DNA of 64,000 nucleotides, from the NCBI GenBank assembly GCA_003132405.1, contig PKXQ01000138.1:1938-65937 (forward strand). The letters run 5' to 3'. Made by a program: the position numbers and the translations under genes. Positions 1,773 to 45,766 of the stretch are shown piece after piece (the first letter of the stretch is position 1; every line of letters begins with the position of its first letter). Below the pieces are notes generated by a model. It was not told the origin of the DNA. It did not search any database and saw only the letters and a program-made list of their open reading frames with translations. This DNA is from Acidobacteriaceae bacterium (GTDB taxonomy: Bacteria; Acidobacteriota; Terriglobia; Terriglobales; Acidobacteriaceae).

Positions 1773-3405
<1,633 letters not shown>

Positions 3406-3501
3406 TAGCCCTGACTTGATTCAGATGCTCCCGCCGAGCAAGAAGTGGCAGAGAAACGCCAGACATCCTTCCTCGTGGTCCACCGGGACCCGCTCCGAGC
3501 C

Positions 3502-3507
3502 TATAAT
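3502..3507 (+). promoter_or_regulatory. -10 hexamer of lipB
   Basis: A perfect TATAAT lies 12 bases before the chosen GTG start of lipB. No strong -35 is seen. It supports the internal GTG over the upstream ATG, which would lie before the transcription start. Confidence 0.55.
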
Positions 3508-3519
3508 TTCTATAGCCAC

Positions 3520-4329
3520 GTGATTTCTGTCGTCCAACTCGGTCAGCTTGATTATGCAGAAGGATTGCGGCTGCAGCGGAAGCTGGTCGATCTGCGCAAG
3601 GCTGGCGAGATCGGCGACGTGCTGTTGCTGCTCGAACATTCGCCTGTCATTACGCTTGGACGCAATGCGCGCGCGGCTAATGTACTCGCTTCCGCCGATG
3701 CGCTGTCGGCACGCGGAGTCGAGGTCTTCGAGTGCGATCGCGGCGGCGATGTTACGTTTCATGGGCCGGGACAGCTGGTCGGGTATCCCATATTTGATTT
3801 GCGGGGATATAGCTCTCAGCTATCAGCTGTGAGCTCTCAGTTGGAACCCCCACGTGCACAGCGCAAAACGCTCGGCGCTGTTGACTACGTTCGGCGGCTG
3901 GAAGAAGTGCTAATTCGCGCCTGCGGCGATTTCGGTATTCCTACGCGGCGCATAGCGGGACTGACTGGAGCCTGGACTGACTCCGAACTTTCCGCCAAAA
4001 TCGCAGCTATCGGCGTGCACATTTCGCGTTCGGTCACTTCGCATGGATTTGCCTTAAATGTGAATCTCGATCTCAGCTATTTCAATCTCATCGTGCCTTG
4101 CGGAATCGCGGCGAAGCCGGTGACTTCCATGGAGAAAGAGTTGGGGCGCGAGATTAATCTGGATGAAGTGGCGCAGTCGGTGTCGAGAAACTTCGGCGCA
4201 GTTTTTGGCAGCCAGATGCTTTGGCTCGAGACGATTGATGCGCTGCTTAGAAACCGCGTCGGTGTGCCAATGAATGTTCCGGAGGATTTGCGGAAGATGC
4301 AGGGCGAGGACGATTTGTTTCTTGCGTGA
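3520..4329 (+). CDS. lipB: lipoyl(octanoyl) transferase LipB
   Basis: Transfers octanoate from acyl carrier protein to lipoyl domains, the first step of lipoate assembly; LipA, encoded nearby, then inserts sulfur. Family motifs are clear: RGGDVTFHGPGQ at 74-85, K160 in AKIAAIGVH and the catalytic C194 in NLIVPCG. The GTG at 3520 is preferred because the protein then begins in register with the family (ISVVQLG) and TATAAT sits 12 bases upstream; an ATG at 3445 would add 25 unconserved residues. Residues about 96-115 (GYSSQLSAVSSQLE...) are an in-frame insertion encoded by a repeat also seen between genes. The protein is 269 residues long. Confidence 0.93.
   Translation: MISVVQLGQLDYAEGLRLQRKLVDLRKAGEIGDVLLLLEHSPVITLGRNARAANVLASADALSARGVEVFECDRGGDVTFHGPGQLVGYPIFDLRGYSSQLSAVSSQLEPPRAQRKTLGAVDYVRRLEEVLIRACGDFGIPTRRIAGLTGAWTDSELSAKIAAIGVHISRSVTSHGFALNVNLDLSYFNLIVPCGIAAKPVTSMEKELGREINLDEVAQSVSRNFGAVFGSQMLWLETIDALLRNRVGVPMNVPEDLRKMQGEDDLFLA
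3811..3840 (+). repeat. short repeat inserted in frame in lipB
   Basis: This stretch is made of CAGCTATCAGCTGTGAGC-type units, partly palindromic. Similar units occur between genes near 10,433-10,461 and 62,735-62,765. Here they encode SSQLSAVSSQL inside LipB, between conserved blocks. Confidence 0.6.
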
Positions 4330-40592: not shown

Positions 40593-40638
40593 TGTCATCC
40601 TGAGCATCGACTGTCATCCTGAGCGCAGCGAAGGACCT
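40593..40638 (+). repeat. TGTCATCCTGAGC direct repeats
   Basis: Two copies of TGTCATCCTGAGC 19 bases apart, the second continuing GCAGCGAAGGACCT. Units of this wording are common between genes in this phylum. They lie just outside the left end of the IS1595-type element. Confidence 0.6.
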
Positions 40639-40669
40639 ATGTATTAGATTTCGCGAGGAGGCCCGGACC

Positions 40670-40677
40670 TACTTTAG
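40670..40677 (+). repeat. target-site duplication, left
   Basis: TACTTTAG, directly repeated at 44,931-44,938 on the far side of the element. Eight bases is the usual duplication length of the IS1595 family. Confidence 0.85.
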
Positions 40678-40703
40678 GGCATTAATATACTTGACTGACA
40701 GAC
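40678..40703 (+). repeat. left terminal inverted repeat with built-in promoter
   Basis: It matches the inverted right end. It contains TTGACT (40,691-40,696), which with the extended -10 TGTTAACTT (17-base spacer, hexamer at 40,714-40,719) makes a promoter pointing at the transposase ATG six bases later. Confidence 0.75.
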
Positions 40704-40725
40704 CGTTCCATGTTAACTTTTAAGC

Positions 40726-41679
40726 ATGGAAAGCCCAAAAACACTTCAGCAGGCGATTCAATACTTCAGCAATTTCGAGAACTGCCAGCAGTTCATGATT
40801 GCAAACCGCTGGGCAGACGGCAAGGTGCGCTGCCCGCAGTGCGACTCTCTCGAAGTGAAGTATCTTCCCAATGCGCGCCTGTACAAGTGCTATCAGAACC
40901 ATCCGCGCCAGAAATTCTCGCTCAAGGTTGGAACCGTGTTCGAGGATTCCCCGATCCCCCTAGAAAAGTGGCTCCCCGCCGTGTGGCTGATCGTGAGCTG
41001 CAAGAATGGCATTAGCTCTTACGAAGTGGCCAGCGCTATCGGCGTCACTCAGAAGTCGGCATGGTTCATGATGCACCGGATTCGCAAAGCTATGCACTCC
41101 GGTTCTTTCCAGAAGCTAGGCGGAAACGGCGGCGAAATTGAAGCGGACGAAACTTTCATCGGCGGCAAGGCGCGGAACATGCACTTGAGCAAACGACAGC
41201 GCCGGATCACCGGAACTGGCGGCAAGGATAAAACCGCAGTCATGGGCATCCTTGAGCGCGGCGGCGAAGTTCGCACCGTGGTAGTAGGGAGCCGTCGCAA
41301 GCAGGTTCTGCAAGGCGAAGTGAAAAAGCATGTGGAAGCGGGAGCCGCGCTGTACACCGATGCGCTACTCTCCTATGACGGCCTTGCTGGCGACTACGCG
41401 CATCAGGTGATTGATCACGCCGCGAAATACGTAGATGGCCGCGTGCACACAAATGGCCTTGAGAATTTCTGGTCGCTCTTGAAGCGCGGCATCTCGGGAA
41501 CCTACGTGAGCGTGGAACCGTTCCACTTATTCCGCTACTTGGACGAGCAGACCTTCCGTTACAACAACCGCAAAGACATGGACAATGCGGATCGTTTCCA
41601 GTTGGCCCTCTCGCAAATTGTTGGGAAGCGTCTGACCTATGCGGAGGTGACTGGCAAGGTGGGTGAAACGGCTTTCTAA
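40726..41679 (+). CDS. IS1595 family transposase (ISXO2-like)
   Basis: A 317-residue DDE-type transposase. The N-terminal zinc ribbon (C36, C39, C55; CPQCDSL) binds DNA, followed by a helix-turn-helix (GISSYEVASAIGVTQKSAWFMMHRI). The catalytic domain has D141 (IEADETFIGGK), D212 (YTDALLSYDGL) and the HTNGLENFWSLLKRG block (241-255), supplying the third acidic/Asn position and the family lysine. It appears intact. Its stop overlaps the end of the small convergent gene by four bases. Confidence 0.95.
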   Translation: MESPKTLQQAIQYFSNFENCQQFMIANRWADGKVRCPQCDSLEVKYLPNARLYKCYQNHPRQKFSLKVGTVFEDSPIPLEKWLPAVWLIVSCKNGISSYEVASAIGVTQKSAWFMMHRIRKAMHSGSFQKLGGNGGEIEADETFIGGKARNMHLSKRQRRITGTGGKDKTAVMGILERGGEVRTVVVGSRRKQVLQGEVKKHVEAGAALYTDALLSYDGLAGDYAHQVIDHAAKYVDGRVHTNGLENFWSLLKRGISGTYVSVEPFHLFRYLDEQTFRYNNRKDMDNADRFQLALSQIVGKRLTYAEVTGKVGETAF

Positions 41680-41879
41680 TCCTTTACGCGGGAAGCGCGG
41701 GAAGCGGAAGTCCGCTTAGACTTCTGCGCCTTTGCTCTTTTCTCGGCGTCAAGCTTGGCCTTGATCTCCGAATGGGGAACGGCCAAAAGACGCTTCATAA
41801 AATTCGTGAACTTGCCGAAATCGCCCTCAACATTCTTTGCGGGATTGGCGGGGCGAGTTGGCTTTTGGGACACGTCCAC
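41676..41879 (-). CDS. small basic protein convergent to the transposase
   Basis: A 67-residue, highly charged protein: FGKFTNFMKRLLAVPHSEIKAKLDAEKRAK, with a Lys/Arg/Ser-rich tail. The phrase F..F...(L/M)..LL.VP..E(I/L) is one I recall from small genes next to IS1595-type transposases in other genomes, but I cannot verify it here. A transposition accessory or regulator role is only a guess. It overlaps the transposase stop by four bases, tail to tail. Confidence 0.6.
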   Translation of the reverse strand: MDVSQKPTRPANPAKNVEGDFGKFTNFMKRLLAVPHSEIKAKLDAEKRAKAQKSKRTSASRASRVKD

Positions 41880-41995
41880 CTTCTCTTTGTAGGGAGAAGG
41901 GTAGTTCTACGTGTGCCAAAAGTCAACCGATGCCCCGTACTGATATTTTCAGTTTCTATAAGCCGGAAGATTTCGATGCTTCTGGAGGAGAAACA

Positions 41996-42691
41996 ATGGA
42001 ATTCCGTCTGATTTATCAAGGGCCGCTGCCGTCCGAAAAATGTGAGGATAAATTGGTCGTGGGAAGCGGTGGCTACGGGAGGGCCAAAGACAAGCATCGA
42101 TTAAGAAAGCATTTTCATTTGCAGTTGCGCGAACTCTGGAGGCAGCACCCCGACTTAAGGGAGCAATCTGAGCAGCGGTATGCAGTATATAAAACACCAA
42201 GCAACCAAGTAAGCGCATCGGGAGCAGGAGTAAGACAAATAGAAGTAGTTCCTAGTGGACATCCAAATGCTAAGACATGGTTGGAGCATATAGCAGACAG
42301 CCATATCCGATGCAACGGTAATCGTTTCGTCCCGCTCATCAGTGAAGCGGGTGGTTTCACTTGTGCTCTCGATATTCTTTTCCTGCGAAGAGACAATCCG
42401 GGGAATCTAATAAACAACCTGGGCGACATCGACAACCGCATCAAGGTTCTGTTCGACGGACTCAGGCTGCCGCGAGATGTCAAAGAGCTCGGAGGGTTGC
42501 CGATAGGCAAAGACGAGGACCCATTTTTTTGTCTGCTGGAAGACGACAAGCTCATCACCAGCGTCACTGTGACTACAGACCGTCTGATTATTCCGCAAAG
42601 AACTGACGAGGATATTGCTGACGTTTTGCTAGTCATTCACGTAACGATGGTGAATCCATCCGCCGTGTTTGCGGGGAACCGTCTCGTGTGA
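41996..42691 (+). CDS. divergent RusA-like endonuclease (transposon passenger)
   Basis: A 231-residue protein. The core GDIDNRIKVLFDGL carries D144, D146, N147 and K150 in the exact spacing of RusA's D70-x-D72-N73-x-x-K76. The acidic cluster LLEDDKLITSVTVTTDR (D183, D184) stands where RusA has its third catalytic D91. Between them is a roughly 20-residue insertion (PRDVKELGGLPIGKDEDPFFC), and the N-terminal 130 residues are longer than in RusA. A Holliday-junction or related structure-specific nuclease is inferred from this motif pattern. The ATG at 41,996 has a strong GGAGGAG before it; upstream codons lack homology. Confidence 0.62.
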   Translation: MEFRLIYQGPLPSEKCEDKLVVGSGGYGRAKDKHRLRKHFHLQLRELWRQHPDLREQSEQRYAVYKTPSNQVSASGAGVRQIEVVPSGHPNAKTWLEHIADSHIRCNGNRFVPLISEAGGFTCALDILFLRRDNPGNLINNLGDIDNRIKVLFDGLRLPRDVKELGGLPIGKDEDPFFCLLEDDKLITSVTVTTDRLIIPQRTDEDIADVLLVIHVTMVNPSAVFAGNRLV

Positions 42692-42698
42692 TCTAACG

Positions 42699-43040
42699 TC
42701 ACGGTTGCTTGTTCATCCGCTTTTCATCCAGATGGCGTTCCTCTTCGAGAATGTTTGCTTGCCGCTGCGCTGCTTGCCTTGGGTACTTCAGCGCCCATTC
42801 CTGCTCAGCGGCAGCCTTGCGCTCCTTGCAGCCCTCTAGCGGTATCTCGCATCCGATGGGATAGCGCTTGCACTCCTCCGTTTCGTAGGGCTTGCGACAC
42901 GCTTCGTCTTTTCTGTCGATTTCAGTGAGCGCGAAGATCGCAACGGCATCCTCTTGTTTTCGGAGATGCCTGTTGTACAGATAGGCGAGAGTCCCGATCA
43001 GCGCCAGCGCGAGGGTCACCACGATCACATAGAGCTTCAT
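42699..43040 (-). CDS. small membrane-anchored protein (transposon passenger)
   Basis: A 113-residue protein with one N-terminal helix (LYVIVVTLALALIGTLAYLYN) and a highly charged remainder holding four Cys (KDEACRKPYETEECKRYPIGCEIPLEGCKERK), possibly two disulfides if exported. No family recognised. It lies 12 bases downstream of the next minus-strand passenger, so the two are probably co-transcribed. Confidence 0.65.
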   Translation of the reverse strand: MKLYVIVVTLALALIGTLAYLYNRHLRKQEDAVAIFALTEIDRKDEACRKPYETEECKRYPIGCEIPLEGCKERKAAAEQEWALKYPRQAAQRQANILEEERHLDEKRMNKQP

Positions 43041-43052
43041 TTTCAGACCATC

Positions 43053-43754
43053 TTAATCAGGAAACGCAACCTCGACTTTTTCTCCCCGCCAACAGAAGCG
43101 ATTGTGCCCCCCGGTTCCGGGAAACGTGAACCAAATCGATGCCGAGCTGAAGTCTATCTTTATTTTCTCGCCAGCATTGGCAATGTTATCTGTAAACTCC
43201 AGCGGTACGAACTGCCAAAGCTTCATTTCTCCCACGTTCCCACGATCAAGCGTAAAGGGCGAGTTCACGATTTGAGGACATTGCGAGAATGGCCGATTGT
43301 CGGACGAAGGCAATTCTATCCTTCCGAGTGGTGTCGGTGCGGCTCTCCTCGCATAAGTAGGGTACGTGACGTTGCCTTCGACTTTCTCTGTCGTGATTTT
43401 GAATAGTGACGCATTAACTAACCTGAAAGTCACTTCGATACATGGGGCAATCGTATCTTTGTTCAATTTCGCGCTTGTCCCGCACAGGATCAGCCTCTTG
43501 TTCATGTCAGCCGAATCCTCATCAGCTAGCTTGTCGAGCCAGCTTGGCTCTGATTTGCGAGTTTCAGGCTTGGGGTTATGAAGTCTTGCAGTCCGAAAAT
43601 TGAAGATGGCAGAGACAACCAACCCAGCGACGATACCCAGTGGCAACAGGAACCAAGGCCAATGTAGGTGAGTGATGGCCGGGCCCTGCGATATCAGCAC
43701 AAGGGTGAGTATGATCAAAATGACAGTACCAATCGCAGTTATCCGTTCCCACAT
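43053..43754 (-). CDS. membrane protein with soluble beta-rich domain (transposon passenger)
   Basis: About 233 residues from the ATG at 43,754: two hydrophobic helices (ITAIGTVILIILTLVLIS and WFLLPLGIVAGLVVSAIFNF), then a roughly 160-residue soluble domain rich in short strands (IEVTFRLVNASLFKITTEKVEGNVTYP). A GTG at 43,817 would add 21 residues; neither start has a strong ribosome site. No family is recognised. Its partner at 42,699 follows closely. Confidence 0.62.
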   Translation of the reverse strand: MWERITAIGTVILIILTLVLISQGPAITHLHWPWFLLPLGIVAGLVVSAIFNFRTARLHNPKPETRKSEPSWLDKLADEDSADMNKRLILCGTSAKLNKDTIAPCIEVTFRLVNASLFKITTEKVEGNVTYPTYARRAAPTPLGRIELPSSDNRPFSQCPQIVNSPFTLDRGNVGEMKLWQFVPLEFTDNIANAGEKIKIDFSSASIWFTFPGTGGHNRFCWRGEKVEVAFPD

Positions 43755-43908
43755 CGCAGCACGCTCGCCTTTTATCGGGATGCGCTCTGTGGTAGATTCT
43801 CTGTGGACGGAGTCCACGAAGCGCTATCCCGCGTTTTTGTCTGACTTTTGAATTGGCCCGTTGACGCGGGCCTTTTCAATTTGTTGCCCTATGCAGCCAG
43901 CAGTTCTT

Positions 43909-44382
43909 TCAACGCTTCAACTCTTCCTTCAAGGCGGCGTTCTGCTTCTCAATCAGCGTGGGGAGTTCGTCGATTAGCTTGTCGCACTGAACTCTATGTT
44001 TGGGCCCTAGTTCTCCCGCATCCGCACAAGCCTTTCTCGTCTCCGGTGTCTGGTAGGCAGGCAGTTCTGACAGCGTTTTACACGCAGTCTCCTGCATGGC
44101 CTCATTCACGCACACTTCATAGGTCGTGCGGTCAAGCTCAAGATGCGCTAATTGACTATCAGTCTTGCCGAATCTGGTAAACCGACTAGTGTAGTAGGCG
44201 TCAGCTTCAGCGTCCTTTTCCTTTTCTGTTGCCTCATCCCAAGTCTTAGCCAGATCGTATCCATGCTTGGATTCTTGAGAGATAACGGGTTGGGGAGTTC
44301 CGGAAGCTACCGGCTGAGAAGCCTGCTTCGAGCAGGCGGTCAGAACGGATAGAAGCAGAACCGCGAACAGGATTTTCCTCAT
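43909..44382 (-). CDS. lipoprotein of unknown function (transposon passenger)
   Basis: A 157-residue predicted lipoprotein: MRKILFAVLLLSVLTAC with the lipidated Cys at 17, then a charged helical domain containing Cys pairs (CVNEAMQETACKTL, RKACADAGEL, VQCDKL). The ATG at 44,382 fits the lipobox. Like the protein at 42,699, it is Cys-containing, charged and anchored, suggesting that the element carries an envelope-related function. No family is recognised. Confidence 0.65.
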   Translation of the reverse strand: MRKILFAVLLLSVLTACSKQASQPVASGTPQPVISQESKHGYDLAKTWDEATEKEKDAEADAYYTSRFTRFGKTDSQLAHLELDRTTYEVCVNEAMQETACKTLSELPAYQTPETRKACADAGELGPKHRVQCDKLIDELPTLIEKQNAALKEELKR

Positions 44383-44401
44383 ATTCCTTTCTGTACAAAT
44401 A

Positions 44402-44767
44402 TCATCGCAGCCCGATTCTTTTCTTGGCTTCAGCAATAGCAATCTCAGCTACCACACTGAGTGCAACGCTCGGCAGTCCTTTTAGCCGTTCCTTTACGCT
44501 GCTCCAAATGCCAGAATCGCGGATAGTGTCAACAAACTCGTGGCCTTTCCATGTCAGTTTAGAAATAACTGGATTGGGGTTGCTGTCCGGGCTCCCCGCA
44601 ACGAAGCCTGCCTCGAACAAGAGATCGACATGGTAGTTGAGTTCCTCCTGCGAGTACTCTCCAAGGCCATCTGCCGGAGTGAAGACATAGTGGTGACTGC
44701 CGTCTAGTTTGGGGTCGGCTGCTACTTTGAGCAACATATCCCGAATCAAATCCATGTTGCGTTCCAC
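44402..44767 (-). CDS. DUF2513 family protein (transposon passenger)
   Basis: A 121-residue protein beginning MERNMDLIRDMLLKVAADP with the later block ISKLTWKGHEFVDTIRDSGIWSSVK, both typical of DUF2513, a small winged-helix-like family common in phages and mobile elements. The GTG at 44,767 is chosen because AGAGGAG lies seven bases before it and the family starts there. It is the first minus-strand gene inside the right end and may regulate the genes after it. Its function is not established. Confidence 0.82.
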   Translation of the reverse strand: MERNMDLIRDMLLKVAADPKLDGSHHYVFTPADGLGEYSQEELNYHVDLLFEAGFVAGSPDSNPNPVISKLTWKGHEFVDTIRDSGIWSSVKERLKGLPSVALSVVAEIAIAEAKKRIGLR

Positions 44768-44929
44768 TTCTAATCTCCTCTTCACAGGGCCGACTAATTG
44801 CATGTGGGCAAACCTCCGGTATATGATTTGGATGGTTGCCCAACAACCGACACTCCTGAAGGGGGTCAGACCGTGAATCTGGCCCTGAAGCTCATCCTAG
44901 CAGGTTGTGTCAGGCAAGTATATTAATAC

Positions 44930-45766
44930 CTACTTTAGCCCCGCGCTGAGCTTGTGTCCCCAACTAAAGCGCCGCCCGATAATGCACTTCACAATCAAAT
45001 GATCGGCTGAGTTCGTAACATCCACGCCCGCGCCAAAATTAATCTCCCAATCCGGCGAAACGTTAAGGTCGATCACTGGAAAAATCTGCTGCGACTGCTG
45101 CGAAATAGGATCGAATTCTGTGACCGGCCCAAGCGCCCCGTAGTACTCAAAGCCGCCCGTAATTTTGCTGGTGAAGTCATAACTAACCTTGACATTCGGA
45201 GAAAACTCCCACCCCTTGCCCGTGTTTAGACCATGCAGCGACCGGTCAAACGCCGGATTGAAAGCGAAATACCAGCGTCCAAGTTGCTTGTCGATGATGG
45301 GACGAAGTTCATAATCCCAACTGTCCTCCGCAAACTTCCGCCGCTGATAGCCAATTTCCTGCGAGATGCTCACGCCCACTGGCCAATGCCACGACTCAGG
45401 AGCCGTAAATCGCGGACGAATATGATCGCCCACCCAATCCCACCCATCGCCATTCTGAATGCTGGTGAATACATAAAAGCCAGTCTCAAACCAATTAGTC
45501 CATCCCTGCGTGATCTCGAGAGTCTCGTGCTCGGCGTGATTCGTAGGCGCAACACCGTTGATCACTTGCTTCGACCCGTCAACAGTAAAGTTAGAATGAA
45601 TCTCCACCATGGTGGAACCCTTCGGGACGAGTTCGGCCGAGTAGACCTGGATTTCGTAGTTATCCTGTGCGTGCGCCAGCAGAACGAACAAGAAAAAATT
45701 GAGCGCGAGAAAAAGGGTACTAACCACGCCTCGCCAGAAATGTTCCGATGCATTCCGCATGAACAT
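44930..45766 (-). CDS. secreted/outer-membrane beta-strand protein of unknown function
   Basis: A 278-residue protein with a signal peptide (VVSTLFLALNFFLFVLLAHAQ) and a strand-rich body with alternating aromatic residues (WYFAFNPAFDRSLHG, FGAGVDVTNSADHLIVKCIIG), probably an outer-membrane beta barrel of the kind annotated as hypothetical in this phylum. The IS1595-type element inserted exactly at its 3' end; the stop codon uses the terminal C of the element plus two bases of the target duplication, so the reading frame is unchanged. Confidence 0.75.
   Translation of the reverse strand: MFMRNASEHFWRGVVSTLFLALNFFLFVLLAHAQDNYEIQVYSAELVPKGSTMVEIHSNFTVDGSKQVINGVAPTNHAEHETLEITQGWTNWFETGFYVFTSIQNGDGWDWVGDHIRPRFTAPESWHWPVGVSISQEIGYQRRKFAEDSWDYELRPIIDKQLGRWYFAFNPAFDRSLHGLNTGKGWEFSPNVKVSYDFTSKITGGFEYYGALGPVTEFDPISQQSQQIFPVIDLNVSPDWEINFGAGVDVTNSADHLIVKCIIGRRFSWGHKLSAGLK
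44931..44938 (+). repeat. target-site duplication, right
   Basis: TACTTTAG, the second copy of the 8-base duplication, immediately outside the right terminal inverted repeat (which ends at 44,930). Confidence 0.85.

Follow-up and report, generated by a model that had tools for sequence, protein, structure and literature searches.

An IS1595-family transposon with passenger genes in Acidobacteriota and a clade of related elements carrying changing cargo

A 64,000-nt stretch of DNA from an Acidobacteriaceae bacterium (hereafter the window, whose numbering our coordinates follow unless a locus or contig is named) harbours a complete transposon of the IS1595 insertion sequence (IS) family, 4253 bp long, at positions 40678–44930. 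Taken as a whole, our data are best explained, and we think probably explained, by membership of this element in a clade of IS1595 transposons, common in Acidobacteriota, that carry passenger genes in every case in which the element could be delimited, and in which these genes have been changed often. The window element is flanked by exact 8-bp direct repeats, TACTTTAG, at 40670–40677 and 44931–44938. Its 23-nt terminal inverted repeats (40678–40700 on the plus strand and 44908–44930 on the minus strand) are complementary at 21 of 23 positions (91%; alignments of other lengths gave 15/16 and 21/24), and an intact transposase gene and six further reading frames lie between them. In what follows, C denotes contigs of the window's own genome, L loci and G genomes.

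The assignment to the IS1595 family was verified with the transposase (40726–41679, plus strand), whose 317 amino acids (aa) are encoded in a frame free of stops. The protein matched the Pfam model DDE_Tnp_IS1595 with 136.1 bits (cut-off 27) and the NCBIfam model transpos_IS1595 with 181.1 bits (cut-off 75). The catalytic signature D..D..N with ENFWS and K is present, with EADETF at 139, LYTDAL at 209 and HTNGLENFWSLLK at 241, and a possible N-terminal zinc ribbon scored 24.1 bits against Pfam PF12760, short of the cut-off of 25.4. The 8-bp target duplication, a hallmark of the family, is exact in the window and in 64 of the 74 elements delimited in this study. Additionally, genes unrelated to transposition stand between the two ends of one complete element and recur in this arrangement at another site, as in the IS1595 members termed transporter ISs. 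Inside the left terminal inverted repeat, a TTGACT picked out by eye may serve as the −35 element of the transposase promoter. The left repeat reads TTGAC at positions 15–19 in many elements and the right one often TTGCC, TTGGC or TTGCG, also by eye; a −35 function may be confined to the left end.

The element is found at a second site and its own site is found empty. An Acidobacteriaceae contig (L034) holds the whole window element, 92.4% identical end to end and bounded by a different exact duplication, CTAGTTAG. In a congeneric genome, G201, the alignment of the joined window flanks continues across the junction, where one copy of TACTTTTG stands. In G216 the joined flanks match from the duplication rightwards, and in G200, at lower resolution, all 700 joined flank bases align at 75%. 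Altogether, two of the six loci in this junction test aligned across the junction, and the other four matched one side or separate pieces. As a control for chance, left and right flanks of different elements were paired, and an exact 8-mer was found in 29 of 5402 pairings. Given this rate, the L034 copy at another site and the empty site, a chance origin of the window duplication is unlikely. A complete, cargo-bearing IS1595-family element had been proposed earlier from the letters alone (the sequence-only reading), with the ends, repeats, transposase and six frames described above. Re-deriving the coordinates and genes gave the same result, the possibility that no other genome has these ends falls away, an empty site has been found, and the proposal is extended here from one element to a clade.

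To sample this clade, a species-genome collection was scanned with the transposase, which returned 72 loci, 68 of them in records titled as Acidobacteriota groups. Together with six loci of the window's genome they formed a first set of 78, of which 45 were delimited; 26 of the 78 had no candidate end pair, and among the other 52 the criteria for the ends excluded 7. For a second set we searched 200 genomes of the class, 108 of which had a transposase match, and hand-picked 40 loci for high score and contig room; 32 of these were delimited and 8 were not, and 3 of the 32 duplicate the first set. The resulting 74 non-redundant elements measure 1833–6983 bp (median 2689). No bare IS was found among them, and none is under 1500 bp. 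Among the 55 elements with the best-matching ends the duplication is exact in 47, and the duplicated target shows a symmetrical preference, C(T/A)AATT(T/A)G.

The window's genome has 11 matches to the transposase, and four more elements with other cargo were delimited in it, on C9, C137, C153 and C91; the duplication of the C9 element does not match, and C91 also holds an element remnant. On C18 and C47 the same genome carries two elements of a distant IS1595 lineage. The one on C47 (L139:4880–6853) and another in G157 (L223:441–2649) are both about 2 kb long, with exact duplications and transposases 34–36% identical; since the C47 element carries a 249-aa gene, cargo may be common beyond the window clade. 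A further complete element was sought around a DUF3800-like gene on contig C8 and rejected, as a right end was found there and a left end was not.

Comparison of the elements revealed a fixed left module, composed of the left end, the transposase and often a small basic protein, behind which the cargo runs to about 25 bp from the right end. In the window the small protein has 67 aa (41676–41879, minus strand), and the stop codons of its gene and of the transposase gene on the opposite strand overlap. The module ends upstream of the small gene, at 41880–41926, where the minus strand reads TTGACTTTT. A relative of the small protein is detectable in 41 of the 74 elements, some matches being weak, and in 31 of the 74 it lies directly behind the transposase on the opposite strand. 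This places the small protein in the fixed module and speaks against counting it with the passengers in one system. We also considered whether AAAGTCAA, at the junction with the cargo, is the fossil of an inner right end, and rejected this in favour of the simpler reading as a −35 box of the small gene; AAAGTCAA occurs in 9 of 45 elements, namely L046, L091 and those whose small protein is closely related.

Supporting the idea that cargo changes behind this module, the left 1.05–1.28 kb is shared at 78–93% identity by elements with different cargo in the pairs window/L035, window/L036, L043/L047, L054/L079, L056/L079, L079/L082 and L209r/L210r, the last from a single genome. The right end common to such pairs is 22–27 bp long, or 40 bp in window/L035. 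This last pair is instructive at the level of sequence: the L035 transposase is 99% identical in protein to that of the window, and the DNA is 93% identical over element positions 1–1249, where homology stops, and 95% over the last 40 bp, with no blastn match to the window in the 1.35 kb between these shared ends. The L035 flanks show no matching duplication (4/8).

We then compared the distribution of cargo with a transposase tree of 73 sequences, built by a quick method (22 of 70 inner branches starred); L104, which is not from an acidobacterium, was left out, and L091 stands on a long branch because its reading is broken. Two cargo families are frequent, DUF3800 and one that we provisionally label HEPN-like after an R-x4-H motif of HEPN proteins. 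On the tree, DUF3800 cargo (20 rows) requires 19 changes and HEPN-like cargo (9 rows) requires 9, compared with means of 17.6 and 8.6 after shuffling; three cargo classes together require 26 against 25.7. We thus detect no inheritance of cargo class together with the transposase, the changes being about as many as with shuffled labels. Some close relatives do keep a common cargo (window/L034, L039/L067 and L054/L082). No recombinase common to the elements was seen.

The window cargo consists of a RusA-like gene that converges on a minus-strand row of the DUF2513, lipoprotein, 233-aa and 113-aa genes. The RusA-like protein (41996–42691, plus strand) has 231 aa from ATG 41996, which follows GGAGG and is the probable start since most homologues start there; the frame is open from 41837. 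It contains the motif GDIDNRIKVLFDGL .. FFCLLEDDKLIT, and an alignment of eight family members keeps GD(I/L)D.(R/Q)(I/V)K..(F/L)D.L and a later (E/Q)(D/N)D. The DxD and the later D are conserved, one member having DxDG for DxDN, and these aspartates may correspond to the catalytic aspartates of RusA. The Pfam model RusA had no match in the window protein and gave sub-threshold matches in 3 of the 8 homologues, the best with E 0.028. What the sequence-only reading took for a divergent RusA-like nuclease does not reach the family threshold, and the name is used here as a motif-level call. A fold model built from two sequences had a mean predicted local distance difference test score (pLDDT) of 27.9, too low to use, and searches of PDB sequences returned no RusA, only weak unrelated matches. 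A search of 200 genomes placed homologues in 8, counting the window's own; one of the eight is weak. None was found in viral contigs or phage records, plasmids yielded two records at 33–37% identity, and a PADLOC scan of the protein gave no match.

The 113-aa protein (42699–43040, minus strand) has a hydrophobic N-terminal segment and occurs in 2 of 299 genomes, in the window, in the C18 element (80% identity) and as one weak match in G280 (E 9e-4). The 233-aa protein (43053–43754, minus strand; 254 aa if it starts at GTG 43817) has hydrophobic N-terminal segments and was found in 1 of 200 genomes. The lipoprotein-like protein (43909–44382, minus strand; 157 aa) scored 18.9 bits against Pfam LPAM_1, just under the cut-off of 20, and occurs in 1 of 200 genomes, the window's own, where it appears twice, in the window and in the C18 element (76% identity). 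The DUF2513 protein (44402–44803, minus strand; 133 aa) matched its Pfam model with 80.9 bits (threshold 29.6), and a search of 151 genomes found it in 5. The best match, at 54% identity, comes from L197, a complete clade member of 3215 bp that also has genes for a 234-aa protein and a HEPN-like one. The C18 element (L009:2040–5850) is itself complete, 3811 bp long, with other ends (23/24), the duplication TTCCGGAA and a transposase 38% identical to that of the window; it also holds a 366-aa gene that looks trypsin-like by eye. As both the lipoprotein and the 113-aa gene recur in it, these two genes have moved between IS1595 lineages. Indeed, both matches to the lipoprotein and both strong matches to the 113-aa protein lie inside IS1595-type elements, which is where the sequence-only reading would place them.

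Divergence from L034 is uneven along the element. Synonymous divergence (dS) is 0.43 for the transposase, 0.49 for the RusA-like gene and 0.51 for the DUF2513 gene, compared with 0.17 for the 113-aa gene, 0.035 for the 233-aa gene and 0.019 for the lipoprotein gene. Element positions ~2100–3800 (42778–44477 in the window) are 96–100% identical to L034, between regions of 71–93% and 81–93%. We read this stretch as a recent recombination tract because synonymous sites share the identity.

The sequence-only reading had suggested that the six passengers may form a single system. In such a system, the lipoprotein and membrane proteins would sense or block at the envelope, and the RusA-like and DUF2513 proteins would act inside the cell. 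L034 has the full set of six in unchanged order at a different site, four genes stand in a row on one strand, the ratio of non-synonymous to synonymous divergence (dN/dS) from L034 is 0.11–0.45 for the RusA-like, DUF2513, 113-aa and 233-aa genes, and neighbouring elements carry known defence genes. However, the parts recur apart with other partners (RusA-like genes without the rest, DUF2513 in L197, lipoprotein and 113-aa protein in C18), dS varies from 0.019 to 0.51 among them, and the RusA-like gene lies on the other strand; the lipoprotein dN/dS of 0.75 comes from 7 changes and says little either way. We therefore consider one dedicated system unlikely. With a mosaic dS and differing partners, joined units fit better, and the window cargo is most likely two or three independently acquired units. 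One would be the RusA-like nuclease, which might act on branched phage or plasmid DNA, and another an envelope module with the lipoprotein and the 113-aa protein at its core. These passengers may have a defence role.

To characterize the cargo of the clade, 144 cargo open reading frames (ORFs) were scanned with Pfam at E 0.001 in three batches of 43, 50 and 51. Of 106 ORFs, thirteen did not enter batches A1 and A2: L034 accounts for five, L067 and L082 for two each and the window for four, these four being scanned separately with Pfam. Assignment to single elements comes from 30 proteins scanned one by one. DUF3800 is the commonest recognised family, with 16 proteins by Pfam. The other matches comprise an MmeI-type enzyme, N6/N4 methylases (one with an Mrr domain), an EcoRI-type methylase, a C5 methylase, Vsr, AIPR, GmrSD, RelA_SpoT, PIN, DUF433, DUF4145, AAA_15/21, DUF3226 and DUF6941, and PADLOC models matched in cargo include PD-Lambda-5 A and B, type IIG and AbiLi. 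The HEPN-like family has no Pfam match; R-x4-H lies in the last quarter of the protein in 7 of 7 members compared with 5 of 39 like-sized cargo proteins. The window element has no DUF3800 gene inside.

The same cargo-family queries were run against 688,542 bp of flanking DNA of the same loci, the elements totalling 213,570 bp. Counts in elements and flanks were 18 and 0 for DUF3800, 8 and 0 for HEPN-like, 3 and 0 for OLD-type AAA, 2 and 0 for AIPR, 3 and 0 for DUF2513, 2 and 0 for DUF6941, 4 and 0 for the PD-Lambda-5 queries, and 2 and 1 for a methylase. Consistently, 43 and 50 cargo ORFs matched 164 and 172 PADLOC models, and 143 flank ORFs matched 89; as fewer models matched there, the flanks are poorer in, but not free of, defence-like genes. 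These data bear on the idea that the cargo is ordinary host DNA, trapped by chance between the module and a distant right end, of no benefit and later lost. Its fast turnover and the 16 of 30 singly scanned cargo proteins without a Pfam match at E 0.01 agree with such an origin. Against it, the families are strongly biased and most are absent from the neighbouring DNA, the genes are intact, with a synonymous rate above the non-synonymous one in 6 of 7 genes, and no bare element was delimited. We regard trapping by chance as improbable.

RusA enzymes resolve Holliday junctions, and the RusA-like gene adjoins the fixed module. Of six RusA-like neighbourhoods, one in another genome (L132) abuts the 3′ portion of a distantly related IS1595 transposase gene; in the remaining five, some near contig ends, the short flanks gave no transposase match. 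That the protein is transposition machinery, for example resolving branched intermediates, is nevertheless very improbable, as blastp clustering of the 74 elements places it in the window and L034 alone, and L035, whose transposase is 99% identical, does without it.

Returning to a clade of cargo-bearing elements, we propose the following model. The transposase would recognise its own two ends and insert the element with duplication of a target resembling C(T/A)AATT(T/A)G; the duplications and the target preference are observed directly, and catalysis presumably follows that of other IS1595 enzymes. The left module and the right end of about 25 bp would stay together, and anything between them would move as cargo, in line with the complete elements of different cargo. 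Replacement of cargo would require two breaks, one close to where the module ends and the other at the right end, through recombination between co-resident elements that share module and right end, or through homologous exchange inside the cargo. With 11 transposase matches in the window's genome and a mosaic in the window element, homologous exchange between co-resident copies appears to explain the data best. Cargo would be kept if it helps the host against phages or other mobile DNA, or makes loss of the element costly, as the enrichment in defence- and toxin-like genes suggests. The small basic protein may regulate the transposase, which is a guess.

A short motif may be relevant to exchange. 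CCTGTCACG followed by G or C occurs on the plus strand 47–60 bp from the right end in 16 of the 74 elements, for example L035, L036, L072 and L200, and again on C8 (25326–25378). Elsewhere, CTGTCACG turns up 3 times in the 213,570 bp of the elements, and 690,022 bp of flanking DNA contain 8 copies. The pattern of motif, gap and end has 16 places in 200 whole genomes, and the reversed pattern was not found. Judged by eye, 12 of these places have the ends of the window clade and one reads like a tRNA-Asp gene. The motif resembles the anticodon arm of tRNA-Asp, and a tRNA remnant was considered and rejected, as a scan of 45 elements with ARAGORN detected no tRNA. Among the five stem positions, covariation is confined to the second (15/16 paired, shuffled mean 9.2), and the third pairs less than expected from shuffling (10 versus 11.4). 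Since the window element and L034 lack the motif and in L035 it lies immediately beyond the shared 40 bp, it appears to belong with the cargo. More tentatively, and with less confidence than we attach to the clade itself, we suggest that the clade could be a dedicated single-transposase vehicle that shuffles defence and toxin genes in Acidobacteriota, that its unassigned cargo, the window set included, may represent candidate new defence systems, and that CCTGTCACG may aid exchange.

Several points weigh against the view that the clade always carries, and often changes, a defence- and toxin-like cargo. The rate of exact duplication is somewhat circular because the duplications themselves helped to delimit the elements, and the 41 of 118 tested loci that could not be delimited may include bare or decayed copies. 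Cargo labels are rough; L213, for instance, falls in the DUF3800 cluster and is labelled 'other' in the tree. The proportion of singly scanned proteins without a Pfam match means that 'defence' does not cover all cargo, the flanks hold defence-like genes too, including a type IIG enzyme, and no window passenger has a known defence function.

The surroundings of the elements provided further observations. The window element sits at the stop codon of a gene at 44930–45766 (minus strand), which stays whole because, by eye, its TAG stop is preserved whether or not the element is present. Just upstream of the element (~40594–40640), the short repeat GTCATCCTGAGCG..GAAGGACC has many dispersed copies in genomes of the genus. 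A structured RNA in the module or near DUF3800 cargo was also considered and rejected: in 21 loci all Rfam matches at threshold lie outside the elements, no DUF3800 RNA family reached threshold, and the window gave a single chance-level match (E 0.7, below threshold). Acido-Lenti-1 RNAs lie outside elements at L034:6907–6952, L036:15224–15269 and L046:6682–6729, as does a group II intron D1D4 match at L043:10929–11048 (minus strand).

Large mobile elements are known carriers of defence genes. A single-transposase transposon of 2–7 kb with changing cargo would be a simple route for the spread of such genes, and, in a phylum not easily studied, the ends of the clade would be a signpost to defence and toxin genes still to be characterised. 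The model also raises the question of how cargo is replaced almost flush with a 25-bp end. As to individual cargo, the RusA-like family differs from RusA Holliday-junction resolvases in a longer N-terminal part and a sub-threshold Pfam score. DUF3800 has an RNase H-type fold and accompanies some Cas12a2 systems, according to PMC10910872.

We found no description of this clade in the open-licence literature under IS1595 with passengers, DUF3800, Acidobacteriota, defence or cargo, or DUF2513, and an earlier one may exist. IS1595-family ISs with passenger genes are already known as transporter ISs, which PMC8496243 and PMC3129680 credit to Siguier and colleagues (2009), and the elements described here resemble them in transposase family, 8-bp duplications and passengers between the ends. 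ISApl4 of the IS1016 group is, according to PMC12561309, a 712-bp IS without passenger that mobilises other genes as a pseudo-compound transposon; members of its type make 8-bp duplications that are often A/T-rich, and its catalytic signature is DES..YTD..HINGIENFWS compared with DET..YTD..HTNGLENFWS in the window clade. Unlike bare ISApl4 as described there, elements of the window clade hold their cargo inside a single element. What appears to be new here relative to the known transporter ISs is a variant with clade-wide cargo exchange, in which every delimited copy has cargo, swapped behind a fixed left module and biased towards defence- and toxin-like genes.

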